DNA from: Stramenopiles sp. TOSAG23-6
Taxonomy: Eukaryota > Sar
Length of the DNA stretch: 23,912 bases
Reading direction: 5' to 3'
NCBI GenBank assembly: GCA_900128565.1
Contig: LT636008.1
Location: 1 to 23,912 of the forward strand
The position numbers and the translations under genes are program-made. This document shows, in pieces, positions 1 through 23,912 of the stretch. The notes beneath the pieces were generated by a model. The model ran no database searches. It worked only from the letters and a program-made list of their open reading frames with translations, and was not told the origin of the DNA. Numbering within the stretch: position 1 is the first letter of the stretch; every line of letters begins with the position of its first letter.

Positions 1-1
1 T

Positions 2-1828
2 ACAAATATACAGCAGGGAAATCAAAATACACAAAATACACAAAATACACAAAATACATCACAAAATACACAAAATATGTCAGGCTGTACATTAAAAATT
101 GGTCGTGTCGCTGATTGGGGTCTTCGAGTAATTATAAAATTACAAATGTGCAAATCAAAAGATCAAACTCCATATGTTTTAGTATCTGTGACTGAATTAA
201 TTGCATTGTCAGTTTGGCAATTTCGTTTAAGTGGTCCTTCTTTAACTAGTTTATTTTTTGGTACAAATAACACTAATAAGCAGACTGAAAATATTTTTTC
301 TTTAGATACAGTTTCATCGAACTCAATATTTACTGTGCTTTCGTGTGCAGCACCAATTATGATAAATCAAACTCGAACTTCTTTGCAAGCTTCAGCATTA
401 GCTGGAGAACTATGTCGTTTGAAAAAACAAAATGAAAAAGAGCAAGTAAAAGCAAAACAGAACCATATTGCTATACAAAGTTGGATGAAATCTCAAGAAC
501 AAGATGATGCTACAATGAAAAAAAAACTAAAAGCTTTAATAGAAAGTATAAAACTAGAGTCTGTAAAACTAAAACACCTTAAAATGAAAATAAATCAAAA
601 CGATCTTGAAAACTCGAGGATATTTCCAATGCAAGATAAAACAAAAATACAGATAAAACATCTTCGGAACGAAAATAATAATAATAAAGTTGATGATGAT
701 AGTTCTACACAAAATATAAAAGATCTTGATAGAAAATATAAAATTTTAGAAGAAAAAGTGTCTACCATGGAAGCCAATGCGATGATGCAAATTGATAATG
801 TTATCCACGCAGCGGAGGAAAGGCTCGCAAAAGTAAAAAATGATGAATTGAAAATAAAACCAACAAAATTTGAAGAAACTCCTGAAACTGATGAAACGTT
901 TGTTAAACCTATGACGGAAAATAGAATTTTATGTTTATTTGAAGAGAGAAATGTGTCGCAGGCGAAAGAACAAAAACGAATTTTAGAGATGGAATTAAAA
1001 GCCTTACATTTTGACAAAAGTTATGAAAATATTAAACATCAAAACGAAACTTTGCAAATACAAAATGAAGAAAATGGGCGAAAGAGTCCTCATATATATC
1101 CAATCACGAAACGGGTTTTACTTCACCGACAAAGAGAGACTCCATTACTTCTTGGAGGTGTGTTTAATGGAATGCTAGTCAAGACGAAGTCGGCTGCAAA
1201 TTTATTAAATACAGAATTATCATGCTGGGAAACACTTTTTGGCGAAGATATGGCAGAGCATACTCGAAAAGAATATGCCAAGTGGGGCGATTCGGTTGCA
1301 GAAGTTGACGGTGAAGTCGATCCATCTGATGGATCGATCAAACTAAAAAATTTTCTTGTTCATGATCCAAGTCTACCTCATATAAATGGAGGTGCTTGGT
1401 GGCCAACCGAAATGCTTGAACCTGCCCAATTAGATACATTACGTTTGAAAAAAAAAATGAATAATTATCAAATCAAGCAAATAGTAAATAGTACAAAGGA
1501 TGCTTGTCAAGATGAGAAAGTTGAAATAGACACCTCAAATAATGAAAATGAATCTTCAAAATTTGATCTTGTAAAGACTGAAAGTTCCAATGTGATCAAA
1601 AATCTCCCAATGATGCGATGGAAACAACTTTTTGGTGAAGATGTGGCAGAGCATACTCGAAAAGAATATGCCAAGTGGGGCGATTCGGTTGCAGAAGTTG
1701 ACGGTGAAGTCGATCCATCTGATGGATCGATCAAACTAAAAAATTTTCTTGTTCATGATCCAAGTCTACCTCATATAAATGGAGGTGCTTGGTGGCCAAC
1801 TGAATTATTGACATATCTTAAGATATGA
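2..1828 (+). CDS. Gene A: coiled-coil protein with a duplicated 59-residue C-terminal module; 5' end open
   Basis: I do not recognise this family. From the ATG at 77 it encodes 583 residues, but the frame is open to base 2 through a Gln-Asn-Thr tract, so the true start may lie outside the window. Residues about 1-110 are mixed and partly hydrophobic. Residues about 105-350 are rich in Lys, Glu, Asn and Gln with heptad-like spacing, as in a long coiled coil. Two nearly identical modules follow (residues 387-445 and 518-576), each with LFGEDxAEHTRKEYAKWGDS, an acidic VDGEVDPSDGS stretch and a terminal NGGAWWPTE. They are separated by a Lys/Asn/Glu-rich linker. A structural or scaffold role is only a guess. 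The stop TGA lies inside a 16-bp palindrome. A candidate AATAAA signal is at 1973. The neighbour B is convergent. Confidence 0.8.
   Translation, partial: TNIQQGNQNTQNTQNTQNTSQNTQNMSGCTLKIGRVADWGLRVIIKLQMCKSKDQTPYVLVSVTELIALSVWQFRLSGPSLTSLFFGTNNTNKQTENIFSLDTVSSNSIFTVLSCAAPIMINQTRTSLQASALAGELCRLKKQNEKEQVKAKQNHIAIQSWMKSQEQDDATMKKKLKALIESIKLESVKLKHLKMKINQNDLENSRIFPMQDKTKIQIKHLRNENNNNKVDDDSSTQNIKDLDRKYKILEEKVSTMEANAMMQIDNVIHAAEERLAKVKNDELKIKPTKFEETPETDETFVKPMTENRILCLFEERNVSQAKEQKRILEMELKALHFDKSYENIKHQNETLQIQNEENGRKSPHIYPITKRVLLHRQRETPLLLGGVFNGMLVKTKSAANLLNTELSCWETLFGEDMAEHTRKEYAKWGDSVAEVDGEVDPSDGSIKLKNFLVHDPSLPHINGGAWWPTEMLEPAQLDTLRLKKKMNNYQIKQIVNSTKDACQDEKVEIDTSNNENESSKFDLVKTESSNVIKNLPMMRWKQLFGEDVAEHTRKEYAKWGDSVAEVDGEVDPSDGSIKLKNFLVHDPSLPHINGGAWWPTELLTYLKI
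23..76 (+). repeat. CAAAATACA microsatellite encoding Gln-Asn-Thr repeats
   Basis: About six imperfect copies of an ACACAAAAT-type unit lie just before the first ATG of gene A. In the frame of gene A they read CAA AAT ACA, i.e. Gln-Asn-Thr triplets, with no stop back to base 2. The tract may therefore be coding (a low-complexity N-terminal region) rather than a 5' leader. The mirrored copy is at 23837-23890. Confidence 0.75.
1235..1411 (+). repeat. Internal duplicated module of gene A, copy 1
   Basis: This 177-bp segment recurs at 1628-1804, exactly 393 bp downstream, with only three differences by eye (GGC/GGT, ATG/GTG, ACC/ACT in the respective codons). Two are synonymous and one changes Met to Val. 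Such near-identity at the DNA level, including third codon positions, means recent duplication or gene conversion. Confidence 0.95.
1628..1804 (+). repeat. Internal duplicated module of gene A, copy 2
   Basis: Second copy of the 177-bp module of gene A. It ends 24 bases before the stop codon. The similarity continues in part: the last bases of this module (GCCAACTGAA plus the following palindrome) are copied again just after the stop, around 1838-1874. Confidence 0.95.
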
Positions 1829-1870
1829 TTTGTGGTTGCCAACTGAACTATTGACATATCTTAAGATATG
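1812..1870. repeat. Two copies of a 16-bp perfect palindrome at the 3' end of gene A
   Basis: CATATCTTAAGATATG occurs at 1812-1827 and 1855-1870, 43 bp apart. Each copy is preceded by GCCAACTGAAYTATTGA, so the whole 43-bp end of gene A, stop codon included, is tandemly duplicated. The first copy contains the TGA stop (1826-1828). The second is non-coding and looks like a remnant of a further module copy. Confidence 0.9.
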
Positions 1871-2161
1871 ATTGGTAAAAGCATGCATGATGATGACATG
1901 ATGTGGAAAAATAGAGAACTTTTGTTCAATTGTCAAATGTTTGTTAAAACAGTTGGTGAAGGTAATCTTATAAATAAAAGAGGTAAATGTTTTAAATGAA
2001 ACTGTAGTACGTACTACTAAGTATACCGTTTTATATAATAAATTAACAAATGAAGTATTGTAGCTGTATGGTCCTGCTGGGTATCACATTTCAGTGCCTA
2101 CACAATCATTTGCTATGCGTACGTGTACATCATGTAGTTTTAGTGTTGCTTGTTATTGTTG
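1829..2161. other. Intergenic region between the 3' ends of genes A and B
   Basis: It holds the second palindrome copy, then AT-rich sequence with a candidate polyadenylation signal AATAAA at 1973-1978 for gene A. The remainder is presumably the 3' untranslated regions of A and of B (opposite strand). I see no further gene. Confidence 0.6.
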
Positions 2162-3049
2162 TTACCTCTTCTTCTTTTTCTTCTTAGAAGAAGAAGATTT
2201 CTTGGCTGTCTTCTTCTTGCCTGCTTTCTTGGCTTTGACTGGGCTGCCGTCCTTCCACTCCCCATCGTGGATTACTTTGCCTTTTTTATCCTTCTTGACG
2301 CCATAACCATGAAACTCGCCATCCTTATGGTCACCCACATACGTATTGCCGGTTTTTATCCAGTAGAACGTACCCTTGCCTTCTTGCTTGTCGTTAAAGT
2401 AGTCACCAACATACGTGTTACCACTTGCATGTATTTTGGAAAAACATTTCAAAAAATATATATTGTTAGGTACAAAGTTTCGTACGAAAAAAATATTAAA
2501 TTTGAAATTAAAAAAAACTAAAACATACATAAAGGTATATGAGCCCTTACCTTGGCGTTTATCATCCTTGTAGTCACCAACGAACTTGGCACCATCGACA
2601 TAGATCATGGTACCTTTACCTTCGCGTTTGGCATCCTTCCACCAGCCATCATATTTTGCTCCGCTCTTGTAGACCATCTCGCCCTTGGCATGGTACTTGC
2701 CATCCAACATGTTGCCAGTGTATTTAGAACCATCGTGCTCCTTGTACACGCCATGGCCGTTTGCAATGCCATCCTTCAATTCGCCTGCATATTCATCGCC
2801 ATTCGCCCAGCTCTTCTCGCCCTTACCATTCTTCACACCACCCTTAAATGTAAAAACGCCCCTGTAATCCTCCGTTCCGAGGTTCAACAGTGCCATCTGA
2901 GATGCTGTGTCTCTATCTTCCTTCGCTCTGATGTTTGCTTCCTCCGCTCTGATCTTGGCTTGGAGTTCGGCGGCCTCTTCATAGTTCTCTTCATCAACTG
3001 CCTTGTTTTTCGCTTCCCTGAGCGCTCTCAATATCGCTGAATCGGTCAT
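2162..3049 (-). CDS. Gene B: MORN-repeat protein with UVR-like N-terminus and basic tail (one intron)
   Basis: Exons are 2529-3049 and 2162-2429; the spliced product is about 262 residues. Residues about 16-45 (ENYEEAAELQAKI and flanks) resemble a UVR-type helical hairpin. Seven to eight MORN repeats of about 23 residues follow (about 60-235), with the usual Y-x-G-x-(W/Y)-x-(D/N)-G-x-x-x-G-x-G pattern. The last about 25 residues are Lys/Ser-rich. MORN proteins typically act as membrane-associated or cytoskeletal scaffolds, or in phosphoinositide-linked enzymes; no catalytic domain is present here. The intron (99 bp, a multiple of three, without a stop) interrupts a MORN repeat; removing it gives SYTFIASGNTYVGDY, which aligns residue for residue with the next repeat. 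Codons favour G/C third positions (AAG, GGC, GTC) more than those of neighbours A, C and F. The gene is divergent from C. Confidence 0.92.
   Translation of the reverse strand: MTDSAILRALREAKNKAVDEENYEEAAELQAKIRAEEANIRAKEDRDTASQMALLNLGTEDYRGVFTFKGGVKNGKGEKSWANGDEYAGELKDGIANGHGVYKEHDGSKYTGNMLDGKYHAKGEMVYKSGAKYDGWWKDAKREGKGTMIYVDGAKFVGDYKDDKRQGKGSYTFMYVLVFFNFKFNIFFVRNFVPNNIYFLKCFSKIHASGNTYVGDYFNDKQEGKGTFYWIKTGNTYVGDHKDGEFHGYGVKKDKKGKVIHDGEWKDGSPVKAKKAGKKKTAKKSSSSKKKKKKR
2430..2528 (-). other. Intron of gene B
   Basis: On the coding strand it starts GTATGTTTTAG, carries a TTCGTACGAAACTTTGTAC core with CTAAC directly behind, and ends in TTTTTCCAAAATACA before TGCAAGT. The placement that keeps the MORN register gives a GT...CA intron (35 nt after CTAAC). 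An alternative shifted by a few bases (GTTTTA...ACAT, 96 bp) also keeps the frame and places an ATG direct repeat at the junction. A GT-AG form (to GCAAG) also stays in frame but shortens the repeat. Confidence 0.8.
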
Positions 3050-3417
3050 GTTTTTGCTGTTGTTTGTATCTGGTTTGTATCTAAAAACTTAAAAGATCTT
3101 GTGATTAGATTAGTTACTAACAGTTACTAGTAGTAGTAGTCCTACGTGTAAGTGTCGTGGTCAAAAGATCGCAACCTAAAAGATATCGATCGGCGTATTT
3201 CGATTCGTACCATTTTTTTGTACGTAAAAACCGCTTCACGAATTTTCAATACGGATTTTGAAAAATCGAAAAGAGCAGAAACTATTTTTTTGACAGCCAT
3301 TCCCTTGGCCAGAGCGTCCATAATATTTTTGATTACCTTTGCGAATTGCAATAATATTAAACTGTATTACACATTGTGTCGCACACGATTTCCCCCTAAG
3401 GTTTTGCTGTTGCAAAG
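3050..3417. promoter_or_regulatory. Divergent promoter region between genes B and C
   Basis: This 368-bp gap must hold both promoters and both 5' leaders. It contains a GATTCGTACCATTTTTT motif (3202-3218) also found upstream of gene E. I see no confident TATA box and no additional gene. Confidence 0.6.
3202..3218 (+). promoter_or_regulatory. Shared 17-bp upstream motif, copy before gene C
   Basis: GATTCGTACCATTTTTT is 216 bp upstream of the gene C start. The identical 17 bases occur 167 bp upstream of the gene E start in the same orientation. It could be a core promoter or factor site. It could also be a degraded intron-type element, since TCGTAC/GTACGT strings are also intron motifs here. 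Confidence 0.45.
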
Positions 3418-6400
3418 ATGGTACAATTCGGACACCAGTTAACTGCAAATGCCGTCGTCGAGTGGCAAAATCATTACATGGATTACAAACGTTTGAAGAA
3501 ACTGATTGTAGAAGTATGTCGAGGTCACCGTGAGCTCTTACAACAGCAGCAAGACGCCCCACAACGTTCCGTAGTCATACCATTGGCTGGAGACCATTCA
3601 GCTCCATCATCTTCAACGTCATTGTTGTCACATATACTTTCGCCTGCTCCTATCACCGCGAAGAGTAGTGATGACACTGTGGATGCAAAAATAGCTTCTG
3701 GAAATCAGGCATCGGATCTTGAGGAAACTTTCATAAGTGGTTGTCTTGAAGAAGTCCAAAAAGTCGATGAGTTCTTTATATCGAAGCTCCAAGAGTGTCG
3801 CGAACGATTAGAACTTTTGACAAATGTACAAGGGCATGAATCATTAATTGAAGATGAAATCGATGAAGATACAAATCTTCTCAAGGATAAAAAGGAACTT
3901 TCTAAGTCTGATTCATCGAAGTTGAAACTCATTGATAAAGAACGAAAGGCATATGAAGGTTCTATTCATCGTGCATGTACAGATTTGTATAGATGTATTT
4001 GTTTATTGGAAAATTTTGCTGTTTTAAATTTGACCGGATTCATTAAAATCTTAAAAAAATTTAAGAAAAATATGGTCAAGGTTGAGACAGAATATTTGTT
4101 GAAAAGAGAGAATACAAATTTTCATCGTAGTAAAAGCTACGGTAATCTTTACTCATCTATCCCGACTGCGCTACCACTATTATGTTCTGGTGGGAAAGAA
4201 GTAGCAAAATTAGTAATGGACAATGTGAGATCGCATTCTGTATTCTTTCATTATTCATTTCAAATTTGAAAAATTCAATTTTATTTTTTTTTAATTTTTT
4301 TATCCGAATCTGAAATTGTATATTGTTTTTCATACCTAACAAAAAAAAACAAATTTGACATATTTTTCATCAACACATTTTTCGCATCATGAAGATTCAA
4401 TTAAAGGTCTTTCAAATGATCTTGAAATATTATATGCAAATAAGTTTTGCGGAGGTGAGCGTTCTGTGGCTCGGGCGCTTTTGCTTGTACGTTGTCCNTT
4501 TTATTTTCAAAAAATTTTTTAAAACCCTGACCCTAAATTTTTTTTTAAACCCTAACCCTAAAATTTCATATGCCTAACAAATCTCAAATATGAAAACATA
4601 TTTTTTTACAATACTTGTAAAACAAAAACCAAAAAGTGACTGGTATATGTTTCGATCTGGTCTCCACTCAGGAATGCTTATAATTCTATTGTTTTGGGTC
4701 ATCTGGATTAATGTACGTTTTTTTTTAAATATGAAATTAATTTTTTTTCATACGAAATTCCGTACGTAACAAATTTCGAATTTGAAATATTTTTTCAAAT
4801 GCATGTAACTCCATTTAAAGAGACGGTATACGCTCTCATGGTGCATCCACTACTCCCTGTGTTTCGATTATTATTGTCTTGTGTATTAATTCAGTGGTGT
4901 TGTGGAATATCTGTTTATCTGTGGACCAAGTACTTATTTCTTATGAATTTCATTTTTTTATTTTTCATACGAAATTTTGTACCTAACGATTTTTCAAGTT
5001 TTTTTTTTGAAATATTTTTTCACAATACAATGCTCGTATTAATTATATATACTTATTCGGATTAGATCCAGAAAATTCTCTCACATATGAGCAGATATTT
5101 TATTCTGCAACAAACAACTCAATTTTACTCCTTGTATCGATTCTCTTATTTAGCAAGCTAAAAATAGAAAATATGTTTTTTCTCCATATATTATTGACTG
5201 GTATTGTTCCCTTGATGATCACATTTTGGTTAATTTATTTATGCCTCCATACAAAATGGAGTTGGAGAATAATTAAAGAAATTGGAAAAGTTTTTTTTGC
5301 TCCATTATTTCCTGTGACTTTTCTTTCGTCATTTATTGGTGATATTGCGACATCTCTAGTGAGGCCTTTAACAGATTTGGCATATACAGTATGTTATATG
5401 GGAAGTGGCGGATTCGTTCTTCATCATCAAGAATTATCTAAATCACACAATTTGATGGCTTGTACGTTTTCATCATGGGTTAGGGTTATCTTTTTATGTT
5501 TTCTTAGTTAGTTTTGTAGGTAACAAAACAAAATTTACAAAGAAAAAAAATAATATATATATATTTTCACAATATATGTACGTCATCAGACACATATACC
5601 AGAATCATTCTTCCTATTATTTGTTTTCTACCTTTGTGGCTTCGAATGCAACAAAATCTCCGAGTGTACTATGATACAAGAAAGCGCTGGCCATCAATGT
5701 ACGTGTTCATTTCAATTTTTTGTCTAAATTATTTTTCAAACGAAATTTTGTACGTAACAATTTTTTTTTGAAATATTTTTTCATAATCCATGGGTAATGC
5801 AATGAAGTATGCAGTATCACATGTAGTAGTCTTATTTGGTACGATGCATCCTATGTGGGCTAAGACAGATTATTCTCATGCAAACAGTTTTGAATGGGCA
5901 TGGATTACATCTTACTTGATTGCCACAATATATGCATTTCTTTGGGACATAAAAATGTACGTTTTCAAAATTGAATTTTGAATATTTTTTTCATAGAAAA
6001 TTTTGTACCTAACAATTTTTTATTAAAAAAATATTTTTCCAAAATACATGGATTGGGGTTTGCTTTCACGTCCGGATGGATTGCGAAAGCATTTAATGTT
6101 TGGTGTCAATAATCGACATCTTTATTATACTGCAATAGTATTTGATGCTTTAGGTCGTTTTATTTGGTGCCTTACTCTATTACCTGGCTCAAAATCTGTC
6201 GGTCATTTTCTTGAAACTCCAAATTATGTTTTTTTTCTATCTTGTTTAGGACCTCTTGAAATATTACGTCGCTGTATGTATGTTTTACTTTTTTTTTTGT
6301 ATGATTTTTTTTTCATACGAAATTTCGTACCTAACTTTTTTTTTCCATTAAAAAAAAAAAAAAATTCACATTATATGTGGTCTTGGTTTAGATTAGAACA

Positions 6401-6599
6401 AGAACATTTGCATAATACTATGGGATTCCGTAAAGTAAATTTTATTCCATTACATTTTGAGACGCCAGTCAAAAGAATGAGCAGGAAATCACATGATAGA
6501 GTCGCGGGAAAATCCGTATTTTTTGAGATGATTTTTGTTTTTGTTTTTGTAGTGACAATTTCTATTTATGCCGCATTTACTGGATCAAAAAACAGTTAA
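3418..6599 (+). CDS. Gene C: SPX-EXS (XPR1/SYG1/PHO1-type) phosphate exporter homologue, nine exons
   Basis: Exons: 3418-4239, 4391-4486, 4617-4712, 4805-4929, 5031-5461, 5578-5698, 5792-5956, 6050-6277, 6377-6599. Total 2307 bases, 768 residues in one frame. Residues 1-about 230 form an SPX domain: N-terminal MVQFGHQLTANAVVEWQNHY, the YKRLKKLI helix (23-30) and a Lys-rich TGFIKILKKFKKNM helix near 205-220 of the kind that binds inositol pyrophosphates. The SPX is split by a long acidic/Ser-rich insert, as usual. The rest is a multi-pass EXS region with the family landmarks WTNARINYIYLFGLDP, LWDIKMDWGL and LRRCMWSWFRLEQEHLHN. Family members export inorganic phosphate across plasma or internal membranes under inositol pyrophosphate control. 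After EXS there is an extra C-terminal hydrophobic segment (about 745-765) that human XPR1 lacks as far as I recall. Convergent with D, 88 bp apart; AATAAA at 6613. Confidence 0.93.
4240..4390 (+). other. Gene C intron 1
   Basis: It begins GTATTC, has TTTTTCATACCTAAC near its middle and ends TTTTTCGCATCAT before GAAGATTC, where the SPX-EXS linker resumes. No AG acceptor restores the frame from this donor. The donor is weaker than in the other introns, so the left boundary is the least certain of the set. Confidence 0.65.
4487..4616 (+). other. Gene C intron 2 (contains telomere-like repeats and an N)
   Basis: Donor GTACGT; core TTTCATATGCCTAAC; end TTTTTTTACAATACTT. The hexamer CTTGTA spans both boundaries (direct repeat), so the exact cut is ambiguous but the spliced product is not (ALLL-VKQKPKSDW). 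Unlike the other introns, it carries CCCTAA-type repeats (4525-4563) and the window's only N (4498). Confidence 0.8.
4525..4563 (+). repeat. Interstitial telomere-like repeats inside intron 2 of gene C
   Basis: CCCTGACCCTAAA, a T-run, then AAACCCTAACCCTAAAA. The units match the complement of TTTAGGG/TTAGGG-type telomere repeats, which are common in plants, many algae and alveolates. Two further short tracts are in intron 5 and before gene E. Confidence 0.7.
4713..4804 (+). other. Gene C intron 3
   Basis: Donor GTACGT; core TCATACGAAATTCCGTACGTAAC; end GAAATATTTTTTCAAATGCAT, 34 nt after GTAAC. ATGTA is repeated at both ends. An AG acceptor 18 nt further downstream (AAAGAG) would also keep the frame, so this intron alone does not prove a non-AG end. 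Confidence 0.75.
4930..5030 (+). other. Gene C intron 4, non-AG acceptor
   Basis: Donor GTACTT; core TCATACGAAATTTTGTAC with CTAAC directly behind; end GAAATATTTTTTCACAATACAA. Joining gives WTNARINYIYLFGLDP, which matches the XPR1-type WRQAGVNHVLIFELNP position for position. The first usable AG would delete that motif. The intron is thus GT...AA. Confidence 0.85.
5462..5577 (+). other. Gene C intron 5
   Basis: Donor GTACGT; end ATATTTTCACAATATAT. The heptamer TGTACGT is present at both boundaries, the longest direct repeat of the set. The core is degenerate (GTAGGTAAC only). It contains GGGTTAGGGTTA (5477-5488). A GT-AG alternative using CATCAG 12 nt downstream stays in frame, but the AT end keeps the Cys-to-Arg spacing of XPR1. 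Confidence 0.75.
5477..5488 (+). repeat. Telomere-like GGGTTAGGGTTA inside intron 5 of gene C
   Basis: Two TTAGGG-type units, in opposite orientation to those in intron 2. Confidence 0.6.
5699..5791 (+). other. Gene C intron 6, non-AG acceptor
   Basis: Donor GTACGT; core TCAAACGAAATTTTGTAC followed by GTAAC; end GAAATATTTTTTCATAATCCAT, 33 nt after GTAAC. ATG is repeated at the ends. Joining gives WPSMGNAMKY, in register with FPHLVNAGKY of XPR1. No AG acceptor preserves this motif. Confidence 0.85.
5957..6049 (+). other. Gene C intron 7, non-AG acceptor
   Basis: Donor GTACGT; core TCATAGAAAATTTTGTAC with CTAAC directly behind; end ATATTTTTCCAAAATACAT, 36 nt after CTAAC. Joining gives LWDIKMDWGL, the strongly conserved WDLKMDWGL motif of the family, with the junction inside the Met codon. 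There is no AG within the ambiguity window, so this is the clearest GT...AT intron. Confidence 0.92.
6278..6376 (+). other. Gene C intron 8, non-AG acceptor
   Basis: Donor GTATGT; core TCATACGAAATTTCGTAC with CTAAC directly behind; end TTCACATTATAT. TATGT is repeated at the ends. Joining gives RRCMWSWFRLEQEH, equal in length to RRFVWNFFRLENEH. The nearest in-frame AG would delete the MWSWFR part. Confidence 0.88.
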
Positions 6600-6687
6600 G
6601 GTTTTTTAAAATAATAAAGTACATTTTTTATATTTTTTTTGAATACTTTTTGTATAAACTCAACTTTCACACTATACTCCTCAAGAA

Positions 6688-8943
6688 CTACTTATGGACG
6701 CTTGGTTTGCACTGCTTTTTGTGTAATTTCCAGTGGATCCTTTGACATGTTTTAGAACAGTAAGCTACAGACTTACAACGCCCGCATTGGAAGAAATTAC
6801 ATTTATCTTCTTTTACTGTAGAACAATTCAAGCAGGCCATAATGGTACTACGCTTTAAGGCAGCAGTTCGCGAGTTATTTACTGGACCCCAGACGCTTAA
6901 ATGTTTCATATCCTCTACAACACTTGTTCTCCGTGCTTTTCGGAACCATTTTTGCGAAGTTTTCAAACATTTATTAACACCATGCCCTTCTCTATAGCAG
7001 ACACCCAACTGGAACTGTGCATCTAAATTATCTTGTTTCGCAGCCTTCTCAAACAGTTTTACTGCTTTTTCAATAGATTTAGTAACAACAGATCCTTCTT
7101 TATAGCAGATCCCTAAATGACATTGTGCTGCTGGATGGCCTTGTTTCGCAGCCTTTTCATAATACGCCACTGCAGTCTTTCGACATTTAGTAACTACTTC
7201 GCCCTTAGCGTAGAAAGCACCTACATTATACTGTGCATCTGAATTATCTTGTTCTGCAGCCTTTTCAAACCACTTAAATGCAGTCTTTGGACATTTACCT
7301 TCGCCAAAATAGTACAAATAGGCTAGAGCACACTGTGCCTCTGGATGACCTTGTTCTGCAGCCTTCTTATACCACTTAAATGCAGTCTTTGGACATTTAC
7401 TAACACTTTCGCCATAAAGGTAACAATAGCCTAGAGAGTACTGTGCCTCTGGTTGATCTTGTTCTGCAGCCTTCTTATACCACTTAAATGCAGTCTCTAG
7501 GCATTTATTAACACCCCAGCCATTGTAGTATGAATCAGCTAGAAACAACTGTGACAAATCATGACCTCGATTCGCAGCCTTTTCATACCAAATTGCAGCA
7601 GTCTTCAGCGATTTAGATACACCCTCGCCAGAATGGTAGCAGTTACCTGTATTATACTCTGACAATAAATGACCTTGTTCCGCAGCCTTTTCATATAACT
7701 CAGCTGCAGTCTTTAGACATTTTTGAACAACTTTACCTTCCTTATAACAGCAAGCTAGATTGTACTGTGCGAAGAAATAACCTTGTTTCGCTGACTTCGC
7801 ATACCACATTACTGCAGTCTCCATATTTTTATTAACACCACTACCATCCTCATATAGCCCAGCAAGACGACACTGTGCCACTCGACAGCCCTGTTCTGCA
7901 GCCTTTTCATACCACTTTGCTGCTGTTTTATAACAAGTGGCGAAATCATCCCCATACGTATCACCGACTGCGTGGCAGAGACCCAGTTGAAACTGTGCTT
8001 CCATACAACCCTGTTCCGCAGCCTTTTCATACCAAATTGCAGCAGTCTTCAGCGATTTAGATACACCCTCGTCACCATTATAGTAGAAATTACCACATTG
8101 AAGCTGGGCCATCTTACAGCCTTGTTCCGCAGCCTTTTCATACCAGTGCAATGCAGTTTTCATACATTTACTAACATTCATACCACCTTGATAGATAGTA
8201 GCTAGGTATAATTGTGCCTCTAACTGACCTTGTTCTGCCGACTTCTTATACCATGCTATCGCAGTCTCCATACATTGATCAATACCTTCCCCATCTGAAT
8301 AACAGCGACCGATATTATATTGGGCCACTGAATTACCTTGATTTGCAGCCTCCTTATACCAACCTGCTGCTTTTTCCAAGGACTTTGTAACACCCTTGCC
8401 TTCCGTGTAGTTTTGAGCAGTAACAACTTGTGCTGTTATATGACCTTGTTTCGCAGCTCTCTCAATCCAGTTTGCTGAGGTTGTTATATTTTTAGTAACA
8501 CCATCGCCTAATAAGTACCACTTTCCTAATTCATACATTGCCCTCGGAAACCCGTTTTCCGCAGCTTTCTTAACCCACTTTACTCCAGTCGTCTCATTTT
8601 TAGTAACACCATCGCCTTGAGAGTAGGCCATTCCTGTCCAGAACTGTGCATCTATGTGACCTTGTTCGGCAGCCTTCTCGAACCATTTGACTGCAGTTTT
8701 TGTACTTCTAGGTACACCTATTGCGCAACAATAGAATATGCCAATACGATACTCTGCTTCTATATGACCTTGATGCGCAGCCTTTTCAAGCCACCCAAAC
8801 GCAGTCTTTTGGCACTTACGAACACCTTGACCATTCTCATAGCAGCAAGCTAAAACAAACTGTGCCTCCATTTTACCTTCTTTCGCAGCGTCCATCAAAA
8901 CCGTCAAATCTTCATCATATATTTCATTAGTTGCACCAGTCAT
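6688..8943 (-). CDS. Gene D: SEL1-like repeat protein with C-terminal MYND zinc finger
   Basis: Intronless, 751 residues from the ATG at 8943. The frame extends seven codons further to a GTG at 8964, which is unlikely as a start in a eukaryote. About 18 SEL1-like repeats of 36 residues (AAEQGHxxAQYxLGxxYxxG followed by xGVxKxxxTAxxWYEK) fill residues about 15-665. A short linker follows, then a MYND finger at about 704-745 with C-x2-C, C-x2-C, C-x3-C and H-x3-C zinc ligands. SEL1 arrays form curved solenoids that hold protein complexes; MYND fingers bind short proline-containing peptides. An adaptor role in signalling, transcription or protein turnover is an inference. Some repeats are almost identical in DNA (repeats 8 and 12 share about 55 bases), implying recent repeat exchange. 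Convergent with C, divergent from E. Confidence 0.93.
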   Translation of the reverse strand: MTGATNEIYDEDLTVLMDAAKEGKMEAQFVLACCYENGQGVRKCQKTAFGWLEKAAHQGHIEAEYRIGIFYCCAIGVPRSTKTAVKWFEKAAEQGHIDAQFWTGMAYSQGDGVTKNETTGVKWVKKAAENGFPRAMYELGKWYLLGDGVTKNITTSANWIERAAKQGHITAQVVTAQNYTEGKGVTKSLEKAAGWYKEAANQGNSVAQYNIGRCYSDGEGIDQCMETAIAWYKKSAEQGQLEAQLYLATIYQGGMNVSKCMKTALHWYEKAAEQGCKMAQLQCGNFYYNGDEGVSKSLKTAAIWYEKAAEQGCMEAQFQLGLCHAVGDTYGDDFATCYKTAAKWYEKAAEQGCRVAQCRLAGLYEDGSGVNKNMETAVMWYAKSAKQGYFFAQYNLACCYKEGKVVQKCLKTAAELYEKAAEQGHLLSEYNTGNCYHSGEGVSKSLKTAAIWYEKAANRGHDLSQLFLADSYYNGWGVNKCLETAFKWYKKAAEQDQPEAQYSLGYCYLYGESVSKCPKTAFKWYKKAAEQGHPEAQCALAYLYYFGEGKCPKTAFKWFEKAAEQDNSDAQYNVGAFYAKGEVVTKCRKTAVAYYEKAAKQGHPAAQCHLGICYKEGSVVTKSIEKAVKLFEKAAKQDNLDAQFQLGVCYREGHGVNKCLKTSQKWFRKARRTSVVEDMKHLSVWGPVNNSRTAALKRSTIMACLNCSTVKEDKCNFFQCGRCKSVAYCSKTCQRIHWKLHKKQCKPSVHK

Positions 8944-9084
8944 GATACCTTTACAAGCATACACGCCTAAGAGTTACTTTCCTTAAATAAATACGTCGTC
9001 GCGCAATAATATCTCTCGAGACTCGTGACTCGACCACCGTTTTGACTGACGTCCAATTCTCAATTCGCGCATTTGTACGTAAAG

Positions 9085-9096
9085 CCCTAACCCTAA
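9085..9096 (+). repeat. Telomere-like CCCTAACCCTAA upstream of genes D and E
   Basis: Two CCCTAA units following GTACGTAAAG. This is the third telomere-like tract in the arm, and the only one outside an intron. Confidence 0.55.
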
Positions 9097-9363
9097 TTGA
9101 TGTGTTGTTTGTATATGTATACCACTTTTCATATCATAATATTCTTTTAGATTTCTTCCGTTTTATTGCGTTTCATTGTTCATTGTAACCTTTCTTTCAA
9201 TTTTTTTTAAACTTTTGGTTTTTCTTTATTCTTCTCCATTATTATTATTAATGTTTTTTATTCGTCTTAGGATCAAATTACTAGTAATTTACCATGTGCA
9301 CGAAATCCGAAAAAAATGCAAGAGTAAAAAAAACAATATATTGGACTTTTTTTTTCGCTATGA

Positions 9364-9380
9364 GATTCGTACCATTTTTT
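9364..9380 (+). promoter_or_regulatory. Shared 17-bp upstream motif, copy before gene E
   Basis: GATTCGTACCATTTTTT, identical to 3202-3218 and in the same orientation, 167 bp before the gene E start. In both places it is followed within a few bases by GTA(C/A)GTAA. Confidence 0.45.
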
Positions 9381-9530
9381 CGTAAGTAAGTAACAACCTA
9401 ATAATAACGGACGAGGCGAATTACCTGACTACACGACTACACGAGTACTACTTTCTTCTAACGGTTGTTTTCATTTTTTTACTAAAACTAAGATTGAAAA
9501 GAACAGCATAAAATTTTACTTACTCCAACA

Positions 9531-10166
9531 ATGAAAACATTTTCTATACTCATTCTTTGCTGTGTTATAACACTTATAACAATGGGTATACACGTGGATG
9601 CTGGGGATGCTGCTGATGGTGGTGATCGTGAAGAACTTGATACTGTCAGTCGTATCCTTCGTGGAATTGACCCTAGTTTGGCAAACTTAGCGGCACAATT
9701 TCACGAATTTGGTGTTACACGCTACGAAGATTTTGGCGGCCTTGAACTGGAAGATCTAAAAGAAATCGGCGTAGATGACGTTTTGCGAGATATATTCATG
9801 ATATGGCAAAAAGAAGCCAGGAAAGCGGATCAGGTTGCACGTTCAACTTCTTCAGAGATACAACGAATATTAGCAATTGCTGATATTCGTCATATCCTTG
9901 AACAAATTGAACGTAATTTAGGCCGCCACGCAGAAGAGTTTTTGCGAGCGTTTTCGGGTGGCCCAAAAGATTTTGACTTAGATTTTGAAGGTTTTCAAGA
10001 TGAAGATGAAGGAAATTTGGCCAGAATTCAACAATTTCTTGAACAACCTAGCCACGATGATCGCGATAATATCACACATTTCGCAAGAGAATTCGCAAAT
10101 CATGTGTGGCTGCGTCGGCCCACACAAAGACGGACCCGGGCTGTGTCCCGTCTTGGGGCGCTTTGA
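9531..10166 (+). CDS. Gene E: secreted or luminal protein with SAM-like domain
   Basis: 211 residues, intronless as read. The N-terminus (MKTFSILILCCVITLITMG) is a clear signal peptide, with likely cleavage after VDA near residue 24. Residues about 47-96 resemble a SAM domain: an LAAQFHEFGVTRYEDF helix, then LELEDLKEIGVDDVLRDI, matching the family pattern of L-x-x-x-DL-x-x-(I/L)-G-(I/V). A helical segment (about 98-145) and an acidic, Asp/Phe-rich stretch (about 147-165) follow, then a basic C-terminus. SAM domains mediate protein-protein association and are usually cytosolic, so one behind a signal peptide is unusual. No catalytic residues are seen. The C-terminal 30 residues are the least certain, because another frame stays open past the stop to 10233. 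Candidate AATAAA at 10290. Convergent with F. Confidence 0.8.
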   Translation: MKTFSILILCCVITLITMGIHVDAGDAADGGDREELDTVSRILRGIDPSLANLAAQFHEFGVTRYEDFGGLELEDLKEIGVDDVLRDIFMIWQKEARKADQVARSTSSEIQRILAIADIRHILEQIERNLGRHAEEFLRAFSGGPKDFDLDFEGFQDEDEGNLARIQQFLEQPSHDDRDNITHFAREFANHVWLRRPTQRRTRAVSRLGAL

Positions 10167-10512
10167 AGATGAGGCCACAAAGCTCCGCGATAAAAAGATG
10201 AGGAAAACATCAGACTACCTGGGGATTCAATAGAATCACTGGATTAGGCCTCAAATCCTCAGCCAAAAAAAAAGAAAAACAAACAGAAAAATAAAATTAA
10301 AAAAAAAACAAGGGTGTTAAAAAAAATCGAAAATTTTTATCTTTTACTTACGTGTACTATGTATCTCTTTATTTATCTAGTTACATTCAATGTTGAAGTA
10401 TTATATATATGTAACTTTGTACATTTACCTCGTATATTTTTCAAATAATATATATTATTTGATATTATTCTTGTCCAAATATGGATTGCAGTATTTACCT
10501 CTACACACACTA
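10167..10512. other. Intergenic region between the 3' ends of genes E and F
   Basis: AT-rich 3' untranslated sequence of both genes. It contains AATAAA for E at 10290, AATAAA for F on the minus strand at 10368-10373, and a perfect 22-bp AT palindrome at 10441-10462 (half-site TCAAATAATAT). No gene seen. Confidence 0.6.
10441..10462. repeat. 22-bp perfect AT palindrome between convergent genes
   Basis: Half-site TCAAATAATAT followed by its exact complement. It could form a hairpin in the 3' end of F. Its position between two convergent genes is suggestive, but an AT-rich palindrome may arise by chance. Confidence 0.6.
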
Positions 10513-11956
10513 CTACTTTATATTTTTAACTGTATTTGAATCATTTGTTGTCCTCAGGAGTACAAATAATAAGTAGCAACTTAAACACAAAAGTAGTATT
10601 ACTAGAACAAGTACAACAATATTAAATGTCTTGTCTTGATTTCCTCCTGTATTTTGAAAAATAGTTCACATTCAAAATTTGTTAGATAAAAAATTTCGTA
10701 CGAAAAAAAAACAATTGAAATGAAATGAAAACATACTCGACACATTAGCTGATATGGCTTTCATTCTTTCGTTTTGTACACTCACTACTCTTCCTGAAAT
10801 TGTTTTCATTCGCTTTTCTATTGATATTTTTTCTGAATTAGGTTTTTTTATTAATTCTTTCATTTTTTTAATTTCCATTAATTCTTTTATTTCTTTTATT
10901 TCTTCTTTTGATTTTTTTAAGTTTTCTGTGGATTCTAATACATTTTCAGTCTCAACAATCCTAGGTGAAGTTTCACATTTTGCATCTTCTTCTAAAGTAC
11001 AAGGCTGGATTTCTGTTCCAGGTGTACAATAAGTACACGCTTTGCAAAAATAATCTTTATAAGTCTTACCATTTTTTTGCCTTTCGTAATAGTTTCATCT
11101 TGTTTCTATACACTAATCCTTCATTTGGACATTTATTAACACATTTCAATTGAGATGGATCAAAAGCGTATTTGCAATTTAAACAATCATCAATATTTGG
11201 TCCAGAACAACCGTCGTTACCACATAAAGGATGGCACATTGAACATTTTCTGTCTTGATAATTATCTTTTTCTCGACCTGTACAACCACCACAAACTTTA
11301 GTAGTACTATTAGTGCTATTTTCAATACATTTTCTATCCCAATATTTTCCTAGTTGACACGTTGTGCACGGTTTACAAATTACAGGTTCAATCACTAATT
11401 TTGCAGTAAATTTTTCGTTGTTTACGACTACCTGAGTTAGAGCAGGTTTAAATCTATACGTGTCAACAGTTGGGGATCCTGGTATGGATCCTCGAGAGCA
11501 CACTTTAGCCTTCATACACTCAGCATCTCTCTTGGCTGGAACTGCGCTATAGTTAGTTGGACATTCTGATACACACTTACCATTGAAACGAACATTATAG
11601 CAATTATTACAGTGTTCTTTTAAAGTTGTTCCATATGCTCGACAACCTTTATCTCCACATTCTTGATGACATGCTTTGCAAATAACATCCTGGTCCCCTA
11701 TGCAACCTTCTGCGTACATACCAATAGGACATTTACCACAAGGAGTACAAACACCTTCAACTGAAAATGTATTTTGGAAAAATACTTCAAAAAAAATTCG
11801 TTAGGTACGAAAATTCGTATGAAAAATATATTCGAATTTGAAAAAAAATAAAACATACATTCTCCAATGGGACACTCATTCACACATTTATTATTTGACA
11901 TGAATCGCTTACAATGACACGTTTGATGTGTGCATGTACATGTGCTGTGAAAAAAT
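10513..11956 (-). CDS. Gene F: cysteine-rich single-pass membrane protein, 5' part missing, with a frameshift
   Basis: Exons as visible: about 11859-11944, 10737-11760 and 10513-10646. The part upstream of 11956, which should include the signal peptide, is lost at the fold point. The product has many Cys pairs in furin-like or TNFR-like spacing (CVNECPIG, CTPCGKCPIG, CKPCTTCQLGKYWDRKC, CSMCHPLCGNDGC), then a Lys/Glu-rich stalk, one hydrophobic helix (FNIVVLVLVILLLCLSCYLL) and a short tail ending TVKNIK. This suggests a type I surface protein; ligand and function are unknown. The reading frame breaks at a run of seven A's (11074-11080): with six A's it would run on into NGKTYKDYFCKACTYC, continuing the Cys pattern. 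A homopolymer error is likelier than a true pseudogene. The first visible exon is followed by a GT-AG-compatible intron. Confidence 0.8.
10647..10736 (-). other. Gene F last intron (canonical GT-AG)
   Basis: On the coding strand: donor GTATGTTTTC, core TTCGTACGAAATTTTTTAT followed by CTAAC, end TATTTTTCAAAATACAG, 34 nt after CTAAC. Joining gives VSRGNQDKT in frame. It has the same architecture as the non-AG introns but ends in CAG where they have CAT. Confidence 0.88.
11761..11858 (-). other. Gene F penultimate visible intron (GT-AG or GT-AT)
   Basis: On the coding strand: donor GTATGTTTTA, core TCATACGAATTTTCGTAC with CTAAC directly behind, then TATTTTTCCAAAATACAT and TTTCAG. Ending at CAG gives CPIGEFEGVC (98 bp); ending six bases earlier at CAT gives CPIGEFSVEGVC (92 bp, 33 nt after CTAAC). 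Both are in frame, so this locus could use either acceptor. Confidence 0.8.
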
Positions 11957-11964
11957 ATTTTTTC
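11949..11964. other. Fold point (palindrome centre) inside an intron of gene F
   Basis: The centre lies between 11956 and 11957 in GAAAAAAT/ATTTTTTC. Read rightwards, ATTTTTTCACAGCACATG resembles the 3' end of the window's other introns (for example AAATATTTTTTCACAATACAA in gene C). The turn thus sits on an AAATATTT-type self-complementary stretch near the 3' end of an F intron. Such a stretch could prime fold-back synthesis. The rest of gene F upstream of this point is absent from both arms. Confidence 0.8.
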
Positions 11965-13400
11965 ACAGCACATGTACATGCACACATCAAACGTGTCATT
12001 GTAAGCGATTCATGTCAAATAATAAATGTGTGAATGAGTGTCCCATTGGAGAATGTATGTTTTATTTTTTTTCAAATTCGAATATATTTTTCATACGAAT
12101 TTTCGTACCTAACGAATTTTTTTTGAAGTATTTTTCCAAAATACATTTTCAGTTGAAGGTGTTTGTACTCCTTGTGGTAAATGTCCTATTGGTATGTACG
12201 CAGAAGGTTGCATAGGGGACCAGGATGTTATTTGCAAAGCATGTCATCAAGAATGTGGAGATAAAGGTTGTCGAGCATATGGAACAACTTTAAAAGAACA
12301 CTGTAATAATTGCTATAATGTTCGTTTCAATGGTAAGTGTGTATCAGAATGTCCAACTAACTATAGCGCAGTTCCAGCCAAGAGAGATGCTGAGTGTATG
12401 AAGGCTAAAGTGTGCTCTCGAGGATCCATACCAGGATCCCCAACTGTTGACACGTATAGATTTAAACCTGCTCTAACTCAGGTAGTCGTAAACAACGAAA
12501 AATTTACTGCAAAATTAGTGATTGAACCTGTAATTTGTAAACCGTGCACAACGTGTCAACTAGGAAAATATTGGGATAGAAAATGTATTGAAAATAGCAC
12601 TAATAGTACTACTAAAGTTTGTGGTGGTTGTACAGGTCGAGAAAAAGATAATTATCAAGACAGAAAATGTTCAATGTGCCATCCTTTATGTGGTAACGAC
12701 GGTTGTTCTGGACCAAATATTGATGATTGTTTAAATTGCAAATACGCTTTTGATCCATCTCAATTGAAATGTGTTAATAAATGTCCAAATGAAGGATTAG
12801 TGTATAGAAACAAGATGAAACTATTACGAAAGGCAAAAAAATGGTAAGACTTATAAAGATTATTTTTGCAAAGCGTGTACTTATTGTACACCTGGAACAG
12901 AAATCCAGCCTTGTACTTTAGAAGAAGATGCAAAATGTGAAACTTCACCTAGGATTGTTGAGACTGAAAATGTATTAGAATCCACAGAAAACTTAAAAAA
13001 ATCAAAAGAAGAAATAAAAGAAATAAAAGAATTAATGGAAATTAAAAAAATGAAAGAATTAATAAAAAAACCTAATTCAGAAAAAATATCAATAGAAAAG
13101 CGAATGAAAACAATTTCAGGAAGAGTAGTGAGTGTACAAAACGAAAGAATGAAAGCCATATCAGCTAATGTGTCGAGTATGTTTTCATTTCATTTCAATT
13201 GTTTTTTTTTCGTACGAAATTTTTTATCTAACAAATTTTGAATGTGAACTATTTTTCAAAATACAGGAGGAAATCAAGACAAGACATTTAATATTGTTGT
13301 ACTTGTTCTAGTAATACTACTTTTGTGTTTAAGTTGCTACTTATTATTTGTACTCCTGAGGACAACAAATGATTCAAATACAGTTAAAAATATAAAGTAG
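11957..13400 (+). CDS. Gene F', mirror copy of gene F (5' part missing, frameshifted)
   Basis: Exact complement of 10513-11956. Exons about 11969-12054, 12153-13176 and 13267-13400; introns 12055-12152 and 13177-13266. The frame breaks at the seven-A run 12833-12839, exactly as in the other arm. Sharing the same apparent error supports copying of one read rather than two genomic copies. Confidence 0.8.
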
Positions 13401-13746
13401 TAGTGTGTGTAGAGGTAAATACTGCAATCCATATTTGGACAAGAATAATATCAAATAATATATATTATTTGAAAAATATACGAGGTAAATGTACAAAGTT
13501 ACATATATATAATACTTCAACATTGAATGTAACTAGATAAATAAAGAGATACATAGTACACGTAAGTAAAAGATAAAAATTTTCGATTTTTTTTAACACC
13601 CTTGTTTTTTTTTTAATTTTATTTTTCTGTTTGTTTTTCTTTTTTTTTGGCTGAGGATTTGAGGCCTAATCCAGTGATTCTATTGAATCCCCAGGTAGTC
13701 TGATGTTTTCCTCATCTTTTTATCGCGGAGCTTTGTGGCCTCATCT
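13401..13746. other. Mirror of the E/F intergenic region
   Basis: Exact complement of 10167-10512, with the 22-bp palindrome at 13451-13472. Nothing additional is present. Confidence 0.6.
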
Positions 13747-14382
13747 TCAAAGCGCCCCAAGACGGGACACAGCCCGGGTCCGTCTTTGTGTGGGCCGACG
13801 CAGCCACACATGATTTGCGAATTCTCTTGCGAAATGTGTGATATTATCGCGATCATCGTGGCTAGGTTGTTCAAGAAATTGTTGAATTCTGGCCAAATTT
13901 CCTTCATCTTCATCTTGAAAACCTTCAAAATCTAAGTCAAAATCTTTTGGGCCACCCGAAAACGCTCGCAAAAACTCTTCTGCGTGGCGGCCTAAATTAC
14001 GTTCAATTTGTTCAAGGATATGACGAATATCAGCAATTGCTAATATTCGTTGTATCTCTGAAGAAGTTGAACGTGCAACCTGATCCGCTTTCCTGGCTTC
14101 TTTTTGCCATATCATGAATATATCTCGCAAAACGTCATCTACGCCGATTTCTTTTAGATCTTCCAGTTCAAGGCCGCCAAAATCTTCGTAGCGTGTAACA
14201 CCAAATTCGTGAAATTGTGCCGCTAAGTTTGCCAAACTAGGGTCAATTCCACGAAGGATACGACTGACAGTATCAAGTTCTTCACGATCACCACCATCAG
14301 CAGCATCCCCAGCATCCACGTGTATACCCATTGTTATAAGTGTTATAACACAGCAAAGAATGAGTATAGAAAATGTTTTCAT
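13747..14382 (-). CDS. Gene E', mirror copy of the secreted SAM-like protein
   Basis: Exact complement of 9531-10166, with identical 211-residue product (signal peptide, SAM-like domain, acidic stretch). See gene E for interpretation. Probably not a separate gene. Confidence 0.8.
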   Translation of the reverse strand: MKTFSILILCCVITLITMGIHVDAGDAADGGDREELDTVSRILRGIDPSLANLAAQFHEFGVTRYEDFGGLELEDLKEIGVDDVLRDIFMIWQKEARKADQVARSTSSEIQRILAIADIRHILEQIERNLGRHAEEFLRAFSGGPKDFDLDFEGFQDEDEGNLARIQQFLEQPSHDDRDNITHFAREFANHVWLRRPTQRRTRAVSRLGAL

Positions 14383-14969
14383 TGTTGGAGTAAGTAAAAT
14401 TTTATGCTGTTCTTTTCAATCTTAGTTTTAGTAAAAAAATGAAAACAACCGTTAGAAGAAAGTAGTACTCGTGTAGTCGTGTAGTCAGGTAATTCGCCTC
14501 GTCCGTTATTATTAGGTTGTTACTTACTTACGAAAAAATGGTACGAATCTCATAGCGAAAAAAAAAGTCCAATATATTGTTTTTTTTACTCTTGCATTTT
14601 TTTCGGATTTCGTGCACATGGTAAATTACTAGTAATTTGATCCTAAGACGAATAAAAAACATTAATAATAATAATGGAGAAGAATAAAGAAAAACCAAAA
14701 GTTTAAAAAAAATTGAAAGAAAGGTTACAATGAACAATGAAACGCAATAAAACGGAAGAAATCTAAAAGAATATTATGATATGAAAAGTGGTATACATAT
14801 ACAAACAACACATCAATTAGGGTTAGGGCTTTACGTACAAATGCGCGAATTGAGAATTGGACGTCAGTCAAAACGGTGGTCGAGTCACGAGTCTCGAGAG
14901 ATATTATTGCGCGACGACGTATTTATTTAAGGAAAGTAACTCTTAGGCGTGTATGCTTGTAAAGGTATC
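14383..14969. promoter_or_regulatory. Mirror of the D/E promoter region
   Basis: Exact complement of 8944-9530. It carries the 17-bp motif at 14533-14549 (minus strand) and the telomere-like tract at 14817-14828. Confidence 0.6.
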
Positions 14970-17225: not shown

Positions 17226-17313
17226 TTCTTGAGGAGTATAGTGTGAAAGTTGAGTTTATACAAAAAGTATTCAAAAAAAATATAAAAAATGTACTTTATT
17301 ATTTTAAAAAACC

Positions 17314-20300: not shown

Positions 20301-20495
20301 AGATGATGGAGCTGAATGGTCTCCAGCCAATGGTATGACTACGGAACGTTGTGGGGCGTCTTGCTGCTGTTGTAAGAGCTCACGGTGACCTCGACATACT
20401 TCTACAATCAGTTTCTTCAAACGTTTGTAATCCATGTAATGATTTTGCCACTCGACGACGGCATTTGCAGTTAACTGGTGTCCGAATTGTACCAT
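17314..20495 (-). CDS. Gene C', mirror copy of the SPX-EXS phosphate exporter homologue
   Basis: Exact complement of 3418-6599. Exons in transcript order: 19674-20495, 19427-19522, 19201-19296, 18984-19108, 18452-18882, 18215-18335, 17957-18121, 17636-17863, 17314-17536. The N of intron 2 is at 19415. Interpretation as for gene C. Confidence 0.93.
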
Positions 20496-20863
20496 CTTTG
20501 CAACAGCAAAACCTTAGGGGGAAATCGTGTGCGACACAATGTGTAATACAGTTTAATATTATTGCAATTCGCAAAGGTAATCAAAAATATTATGGACGCT
20601 CTGGCCAAGGGAATGGCTGTCAAAAAAATAGTTTCTGCTCTTTTCGATTTTTCAAAATCCGTATTGAAAATTCGTGAAGCGGTTTTTACGTACAAAAAAA
20701 TGGTACGAATCGAAATACGCCGATCGATATCTTTTAGGTTGCGATCTTTTGACCACGACACTTACACGTAGGACTACTACTACTAGTAACTGTTAGTAAC
20801 TAATCTAATCACAAGATCTTTTAAGTTTTTAGATACAAACCAGATACAAACAACAGCAAAAAC
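20496..20863. promoter_or_regulatory. Mirror of the B/C promoter region
   Basis: Exact complement of 3050-3417, with the 17-bp shared motif at 20695-20711 (minus strand). Confidence 0.6.
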
Positions 20864-21751
20864 ATGACCGATTCAGCGATATTGAGAGCGCTCAGGGAAG
20901 CGAAAAACAAGGCAGTTGATGAAGAGAACTATGAAGAGGCCGCCGAACTCCAAGCCAAGATCAGAGCGGAGGAAGCAAACATCAGAGCGAAGGAAGATAG
21001 AGACACAGCATCTCAGATGGCACTGTTGAACCTCGGAACGGAGGATTACAGGGGCGTTTTTACATTTAAGGGTGGTGTGAAGAATGGTAAGGGCGAGAAG
21101 AGCTGGGCGAATGGCGATGAATATGCAGGCGAATTGAAGGATGGCATTGCAAACGGCCATGGCGTGTACAAGGAGCACGATGGTTCTAAATACACTGGCA
21201 ACATGTTGGATGGCAAGTACCATGCCAAGGGCGAGATGGTCTACAAGAGCGGAGCAAAATATGATGGCTGGTGGAAGGATGCCAAACGCGAAGGTAAAGG
21301 TACCATGATCTATGTCGATGGTGCCAAGTTCGTTGGTGACTACAAGGATGATAAACGCCAAGGTAAGGGCTCATATACCTTTATGTATGTTTTAGTTTTT
21401 TTTAATTTCAAATTTAATATTTTTTTCGTACGAAACTTTGTACCTAACAATATATATTTTTTGAAATGTTTTTCCAAAATACATGCAAGTGGTAACACGT
21501 ATGTTGGTGACTACTTTAACGACAAGCAAGAAGGCAAGGGTACGTTCTACTGGATAAAAACCGGCAATACGTATGTGGGTGACCATAAGGATGGCGAGTT
21601 TCATGGTTATGGCGTCAAGAAGGATAAAAAAGGCAAAGTAATCCACGATGGGGAGTGGAAGGACGGCAGCCCAGTCAAAGCCAAGAAAGCAGGCAAGAAG
21701 AAGACAGCCAAGAAATCTTCTTCTTCTAAGAAGAAAAAGAAGAAGAGGTAA
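20864..21751 (+). CDS. Gene B', mirror copy of the MORN-repeat protein
   Basis: Exact complement of 2162-3049. Exons 20864-21384 and 21484-21751, intron 21385-21483. Interpretation as for gene B. Confidence 0.92.
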   Translation: MTDSAILRALREAKNKAVDEENYEEAAELQAKIRAEEANIRAKEDRDTASQMALLNLGTEDYRGVFTFKGGVKNGKGEKSWANGDEYAGELKDGIANGHGVYKEHDGSKYTGNMLDGKYHAKGEMVYKSGAKYDGWWKDAKREGKGTMIYVDGAKFVGDYKDDKRQGKGSYTFMYVLVFFNFKFNIFFVRNFVPNNIYFLKCFSKIHASGNTYVGDYFNDKQEGKGTFYWIKTGNTYVGDHKDGEFHGYGVKKDKKGKVIHDGEWKDGSPVKAKKAGKKKTAKKSSSSKKKKKKR

Positions 21752-23911: not shown

Positions 23912-23912
23912 A

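Follow-up and report, generated by a model that had tools for sequence, protein, structure and literature searches.

Introns that spread as repeated elements and introns that depart from the GT-AG rule are both known. Introners, surveyed in 175 genomes (PMC9860276), are described as repeated intron-sized elements that lie in many genes, create target-site duplications of 3-9 bp and are mostly spliced so that length is preserved; there are families in which the element supplies one splice site and the duplication gives the other, around a GY/AG core with rare GC or GA donors. In Amoebophrya, more than 60% of introns are reported to be non-GT-AG, and some are repeated elements with border-spanning direct repeats of 3-5 nt (PMC7789003). 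These introns are described as having no clear terminal dinucleotides, and 11% and 30% of those that are non-canonical carry inverted repeats of 8-20 nt between their ends; the stramenopile Aureococcus is named in the same report as another organism with non-canonical introns. In the tunicate Fritillaria borealis (PMC13326754), 3' ends are diverse, AT and AC among them, and divergent U2AF subunits are proposed to recognise its non-GT/AG introns; its 5' sites diverge too, with AG-A(N) patterns, and the available text of that report describes no single repeated family. The nonconventional introns of euglenids and diplonemids also break the GT-AG rule and are described as lacking conserved borders, with their ends joined by structure. 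Introners and non-canonical introns are therefore familiar, in Amoebophrya even together; the variant described below is new.

The window analysed here, 23,912 bases long, is contig C58 of a 408-contig, 8.03-Mb assembly. It is a perfect palindrome (1..23912), with 0 mismatches to its own reverse complement over 23,912 bases, and even the N at position 4498 is mirrored. Because of this, the mirror copy of each feature offers no independent support and only one half is informative. Mirrored or near-duplicate stretches also occur in contigs C2 and C37 and, by match coordinates, in C13/C14, which suggests an artefact of amplification or assembly in a single-cell genome; the whole-contig palindrome is probably such an artefact. 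In total, 174 kb of sequence was examined, comprising half of the window, contigs C1-C3 and loci L008-L034. The loci were picked by motif, while C1-C3 and the window were picked without it. By eye, the first gene of the window contains a near-identical direct repeat (~1230-1405 and 1620-1805), and the minus strand at 6688-8973 carries a 761-codon open frame for a long Sel1/TPR-like repeat protein with a C-terminal MYND-type zinc finger.

The gene at 3418..6599 (plus strand; palindromic mirror copy at 17314-20495, minus strand) encodes an SPX-EXS protein of the XPR1/PHO1 type, i.e., a phosphate exporter. With ATG at 3418 and stop at 6599, its nine exons splice to a CDS of 2319 nt in a single 772-codon frame (772 aa), which replaces the 2307 bases given by the sequence-only reading. 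Our guess is that the 12-nt difference reflects use of a frame-compatible AG lying 12 nt past the start of the exon that follows intron 5, which would delete four residues. The spliced product matched Pfam SPX at 94.1 bits and EXS as one match of 246.5 bits, compared with separate EXS pieces of 86.4 and 60.5 bits when unspliced, and aligned to solved XPR1/SLC53A1 chains with a best E=2.1e-53. The EXS motifs that had prompted the sequence-only reading are continuous in this product, and the junctions of introns 4, 6, 7 and 8 are gap-free against the solved chains. A search of 5.8 billion proteins returned seven matches to the SPX-EXS protein. Among them, P0002 (755 aa, from a 3,910-base contig) is a full-length relative with 48% identity, which in this protein-level comparison aligns across all eight intron positions with 0 gaps at the junctions.

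All eight introns begin with GT (GTAYGT in six, GTACTT in one, GTATTC in one) and none of the eight ends in AG. The conserved residues are all kept only if six introns are removed as GT...AT, one as GT...TT and one as GT...AA. Introns 4, 6, 7 and 8 had been proposed to end in AA or AT, and their ends are indeed AA, AT, AT and AT, with conserved residues kept only so; the class was drawn too narrowly, however, since introns 1, 2, 3 and 5 are non-AG as well (AT, TT, AT, AT). All lie on the plus strand. Intron 4 (4930..5030, GTACTT...CAATACAA) is preceded by AA and ends in AA. The same agreement, with AT on both sides, holds for intron 6 (5699..5791, GTACGT...TAATCCAT), intron 7 (5957..6049, GTACGT...AAATACAT), intron 8 (6278..6376, GTATGT...CATTATAT) and intron 3 (4713..4804, GTACGT...AAATGCAT), the last keeping NVTPFKE where P0002 has NLSPMSD. 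Intron 2 (4487..4616, GTACGT...CAATACTT, containing the N at 4498) shows a TT/TT duplication, and ALLLVKQKP is uninterrupted in P0002 and P0003. Intron 5 (5462..5577, GTACGT...CAATATAT) has TT before the donor and AT last, keeping ACTSSDT where P0002 has SCTESRL. Intron 1 (4240..4378, GTATTC...CACAT) has CT before the donor and AT last, and the exon keeps S (TCT).

For each of these introns, the search for AG started 30 nt inside the intron and continued until 90 nt beyond its proposed end. No frame-compatible AG was present in this span for introns 2, 4, 6 and 7. Those available for introns 1, 3, 5 and 8 cost 4 to 30 residues or, in a single case (intron 5), retained a stop; for the intron 1 alternatives, stops from the unspliced next intron were left uncounted.

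The same layout recurs in the 174 kb examined, where family introns were found in many unrelated genes: GTAYGTTT, a branch-like TACCTAAC, a stretch rich in T, and YAMAATAC with two more bases behind it. Scanning the 8.03-Mb assembly for the core CATACGAAATTTCGTACCTAAC with up to 3 mismatches yielded 970 + 879 = 1,849 matches, and 0 matches to its reversed control. Duplicated and palindromic contigs inflate this count, and we place the copy number of the family in this marine, single-celled stramenopile at roughly a thousand or more. These transposon-like copies of one family had no place in the sequence-only reading. Across the genome, exact 3' ends (TACCTAAC...CAMAATAC) number 530 + 481 = 1,011, duplicated contigs included, and the dinucleotide that follows is AT in 831, AG in 26 and another in 154. 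In contrast to the GY/AG core of the surveyed introners, AG is thus rare. Consistent with the GT...non-AG class that had been postulated, a GT-AG search over the examined DNA, which is partly motif-chosen, detected 17 coding junctions, 16 of which belong to the family, 15 recognised by pattern and 1 by eye. The 17th, at 11066-11094, is an overlap of two receptor-like gene frames beside an A-run and a probable frameshift. A stricter run gave 11 junctions, 10 with the motif and 1 same-frame gap. As the junction method senses few junctions, the genome may contain a minority of GT-AG introns.

We tabulated 68 family introns, located by donor and branch patterns, so that some of the constancy of those letters follows from the way the introns were selected. 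Under the search pattern GTA[CT][GT]T, their donors were GTATGT (34), GTACGT (26), GTATTT (7) and GTACTT (1), and a single intron ended in AG. Among the 47 that carry GTA.GT and either TAC or TAT (the strict subset), each of the next three donor bases was T in 44 to 46 introns, and the branch A lay 26-51 nt before the exon (median 40). The TACCTAAC-like site and the T-rich tract are present before the intron end, an arrangement in which the site would be recognised as a branch site by the spliceosome. At L010 3588-4231, element copies lie in tandem or nested in one another's span.

The last two intron bases equal the two exon bases before the GT in 42/68 introns, whereas 10,000 shuffles gave a mean of 20.8 and a maximum of 31. 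The strict subset showed 33/47 matches (shuffles: mean 16.8, maximum 26). Taken per base, the excess is confined to positions -2 (48 observed vs 29.1 expected) and -1 (52 vs 44.5), with none at -3 (26 vs 23.5), and the pairs duplicated include AT, TT, GT, AA, AC, CT and TG. We read this copy as a 2-bp target-site duplication, shorter than the 3-9 bp of known introners (PMC9860276). The first exon base is G in 28/47 introns of the strict subset, and the duplication may therefore be NTG, with the donor G shared (3 bp). Since the intron end mostly copies the insertion-site dinucleotide, it varies among AT, GT, TT, AA, CT and AC. The relaxed acceptor A-C/T-A-N formulated earlier came close to this but passed over the probable cause: the recurrent element is YAMAATAC, and the two bases after it are mostly a copy of the two exon bases before the donor.

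Coding frames were called independently on both sides of each intron. Placing the start of the next exon 2 nt past TAC satisfies 32/38 frames (from 54 introns) and, with an automatic landmark, 39/48 (from 68 introns), compared with 20/48 for a first-AG rule. Protein continuity agrees with this rule at other loci: a UCH_1 domain runs over a GT...GT intron, DEAD_2 and Helicase_C_2 domains run over junctions spliced in the same way, and the junction in RPA2 (RNA polymerase I, contig C3) is gap-free against solved RPA2/RPA135 chains. A kinase junction in L032 is gap-free against a calcium-dependent kinase and has a one-residue gap beside it against ULK3; we did not count it as support, as six residues are missing slightly upstream in both comparisons.

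Nine of the 48 confident frames do not fit. Two of them (window 6277 and L032 939) are script landmark errors and are in frame in the 38-frame count, and L010 4116 has intron sequence upstream. L015 828, L030 1224 and C2 15420 look real; the remaining misfits are L027 1463, L030 1452 and C1 1520. The three that look real begin with ATGTATGT, as does an intron of the same family in a MORN-repeat gene of the window (2429..2528, minus strand; mirror 21385-21484, plus strand), which lies outside the 48. All four would come into frame if the intron ended one nt sooner or began two nt sooner; for the MORN intron this means either an exon start 1 nt upstream of the usual position or removal of the pre-donor AT as well. 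When the protein of a MORN relative (P0008, 97% identical) is followed into the intron, it points to a difference of 2 nt immediately upstream of the donor. These four exceptions may reflect a splicing slip or assembly indels. Two further family introns lie in a gene that extends into the centre of the palindrome and that, by eye, is of a cysteine-rich receptor-like kind. One (11767..11858, minus strand, GTATGT...AAAATACAT; mirror 12055-12146, plus strand) is ambiguous, with an in-frame AG 6 nt downstream. The other (10647..10736, minus strand, GTATGT...AAAATACAG; mirror 13177-13266, plus strand) is the AG-ending intron among the 68.

Together, these observations make it highly probable, in our judgement, that the introns belong to a single family of transposon-like introners, non-autonomous and inserting at NT(G), which produce a 2-bp duplication and are removed by U2-type splicing without AG. 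The mobility of the element and the splicing of its RNA are what the repeated copies, the duplication and the restored frames lead us to expect.

Where the two dinucleotides match, GT...AT and AT...AC cuts give the same product, so the mRNA would be identical if the cut lay two bases further left and the introns were XYGT...TAC, mostly AT...AC, perhaps removed by a U12-type minor spliceosome. AT is also the commonest pre-donor dinucleotide (24/47). Where the pairs differ, however, the exon appears to keep the upstream one, giving S and not Y in both SPX-EXS intron 1 and RPA2. At the former position relatives have A, S and L, while the alternative cut would give Y; in RPA2 the deciding residue is S in the relative P0129 and M in the solved chains. 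L018 and L021 point in the same direction, judged against what we take to be the family consensus. The upstream letters thus fit relatives better, which favours GT...NN introns. Moreover, at other sites the shifted cut would yield introns beginning with GT, TT, AA, CT or AC. U12-type introns have an ATATCC donor and a branch site 10-20 nt from the end, whereas the donor here is GTAYGTTT and the branch-exon distance of 26-51 nt is too long. We therefore regard the shifted cut as unlikely.

A still less likely explanation is that, as in euglenids or Amoebophrya, these are nonconventional introns joined by a hairpin, with borders set by pairing of the ends. In the introns at 4713-4804, 4930-5030 and 6278-6376, the GTAYG-like 5' start can pair with YGTAC just 5' of the branch site, a pairing that would place the donor close to the branch point. 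Some introns are also more stably folded than their shuffled versions (z -0.27 to -4.13 for 7/8 SPX-EXS introns, intron 2 being excluded for its N). Mirroring of the intron ends is clear for GTA...TAC only. Yet longer pairing of the two ends of one intron gives no advantage over ends swapped between introns (-2.33 vs -2.42 kcal/mol). The lack of conserved borders and the structural joining described for euglenid and diplonemid introns are not seen here. Unlike the Amoebophrya introns, moreover, those described here have a recurrent GTAYGT, a branch-like site and a motif before the end.

Short AT-rich elements in coding exons, with a 2-bp duplication and apparently scarless removal, also call to mind the internal eliminated sequences of ciliates, which are removed from DNA during nuclear development. 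Such elimination needs no orientation, but among the family copies 60 lie in sense with the gene and 3 in antisense (10 unclear, 8 at an edge), i.e., 60/63 assignable copies are sense. An asymmetric branch-like site and a T-rich tract recur, and the best protein matches are labelled MAST, not ciliate. We consider this explanation very improbable.

The deposited gene models bear on the remaining alternative. P0001 (eukprot GSMAST32) is identical to the SPX-EXS protein outside mis-predicted stretches. In the P0001 model, VTPFKE, the ARINYIYLFGLDP region, GNAMKYA, DWGLLSRPDGLRK and WSWFR are deleted or replaced by intron translation, and most of ARINYIYLFGLDPENSLTYEQ is lost; counterparts of all these segments exist in P0002. 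Similarly, RPA2 compared with GSMAST32 P0128 gives 430/580 agreeing columns, 146 gap columns and 4 mismatches. At the junction P0128 reads FRSV--RRFF, our introner model FRSVHRGRFF and the relative P0129 FRSVHRGQFF. Several segments absent from P0128 lie in one open frame of contig C3, which indicates that this model also cuts true coding sequence. It seems from these comparisons that non-AG introns garbled the deposited gene models that we checked. That the introns are ordinary GT-AG introns obscured by sequencing errors or with overlooked AG sites nearby is equally improbable: the assembly does have artefacts such as the perfect palindrome, and EukProt models of identical sequence appear to use AG ends, but these models lose segments that P0002 retains, and non-AG ends recur in 985 of 1,011 cases, beyond what error can produce.

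The labels of the two matched proteins also indicate that the host is probably a MAST stramenopile; kinship with euglenids or Amoebophrya, which the sequence-only reading had brought into play, finds no support, given that the best protein matches carry the MAST label. We take GSMAST32 to denote MAST-3, although the label itself says MAST. MAST-3 single cells were sequenced by Seeleuthner et al. 2018 (PMC5778133), and GSMAST32 may be linked to these. Among the matches listed from the open-licence literature, none dealt with introns of this kind in MAST lineages. Of the MAST genome papers, PMC8163842 and PMC12614181 have 0 uses of the word "intron" in their main text and PMC5778133 has two.

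The introner reading would imply the following course of splicing. Each element would supply GUAYGU as a strong 5' splice site, UACCUAAC as a branch site and a tract rich in pyrimidines with YAMAAUAC at its end. The 5' site and the branch site would be recognised as usual, while the 3' cut would be placed by distance and the AAUAC motif instead of AG. The second cut would fall two nucleotides past UAC, behind the downstream copy of the dinucleotide and a median of 40 nt after the branch A, so that removal of GT...TAC+NN would restore the frame whatever the target letters. A spliceosome is to be expected, as PRP8 (an open frame of 2021 codons whose PROCN domain scores 766.8 bits) and Slu7 (185 bits over part of the profile) are encoded. 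Searches of this incomplete assembly, run without a positive control, gave no match for U2 or U6 snRNA and no candidate with a human U2AF35 query. By analogy with Fritillaria, a diverged U2AF pair could account for the predicted tolerance of non-AG ends. More tentatively, and with somewhat less than even confidence, we propose that the spliceosome of this organism ignores AG altogether: the transposon would have taught it a letter-blind cut 2 nt past YAMAAUAC, scarless at nearly any NT, with nearly all introns stemming from one family and the end of the element serving as the 3' code.

If the introner reading is true, this organism provides a clear example from nature of a spliceosome that operates on a large scale with no AG rule. 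The reason would be visible in the sequence itself, in that the target-site duplication serves the introner as its second splice site, and the choice of a 3' splice site without AG would become testable. The EukProt GSMAST32 gene models may then be widely wrong, given that both proteins compared (2/2) have conserved segments deleted or replaced by intron translation. Finally, intron gain would be linked to a change in the splice code in a lineage far from dinoflagellates and tunicates, in a host whose proteins, unlike those of Amoebophrya, match a stramenopile.
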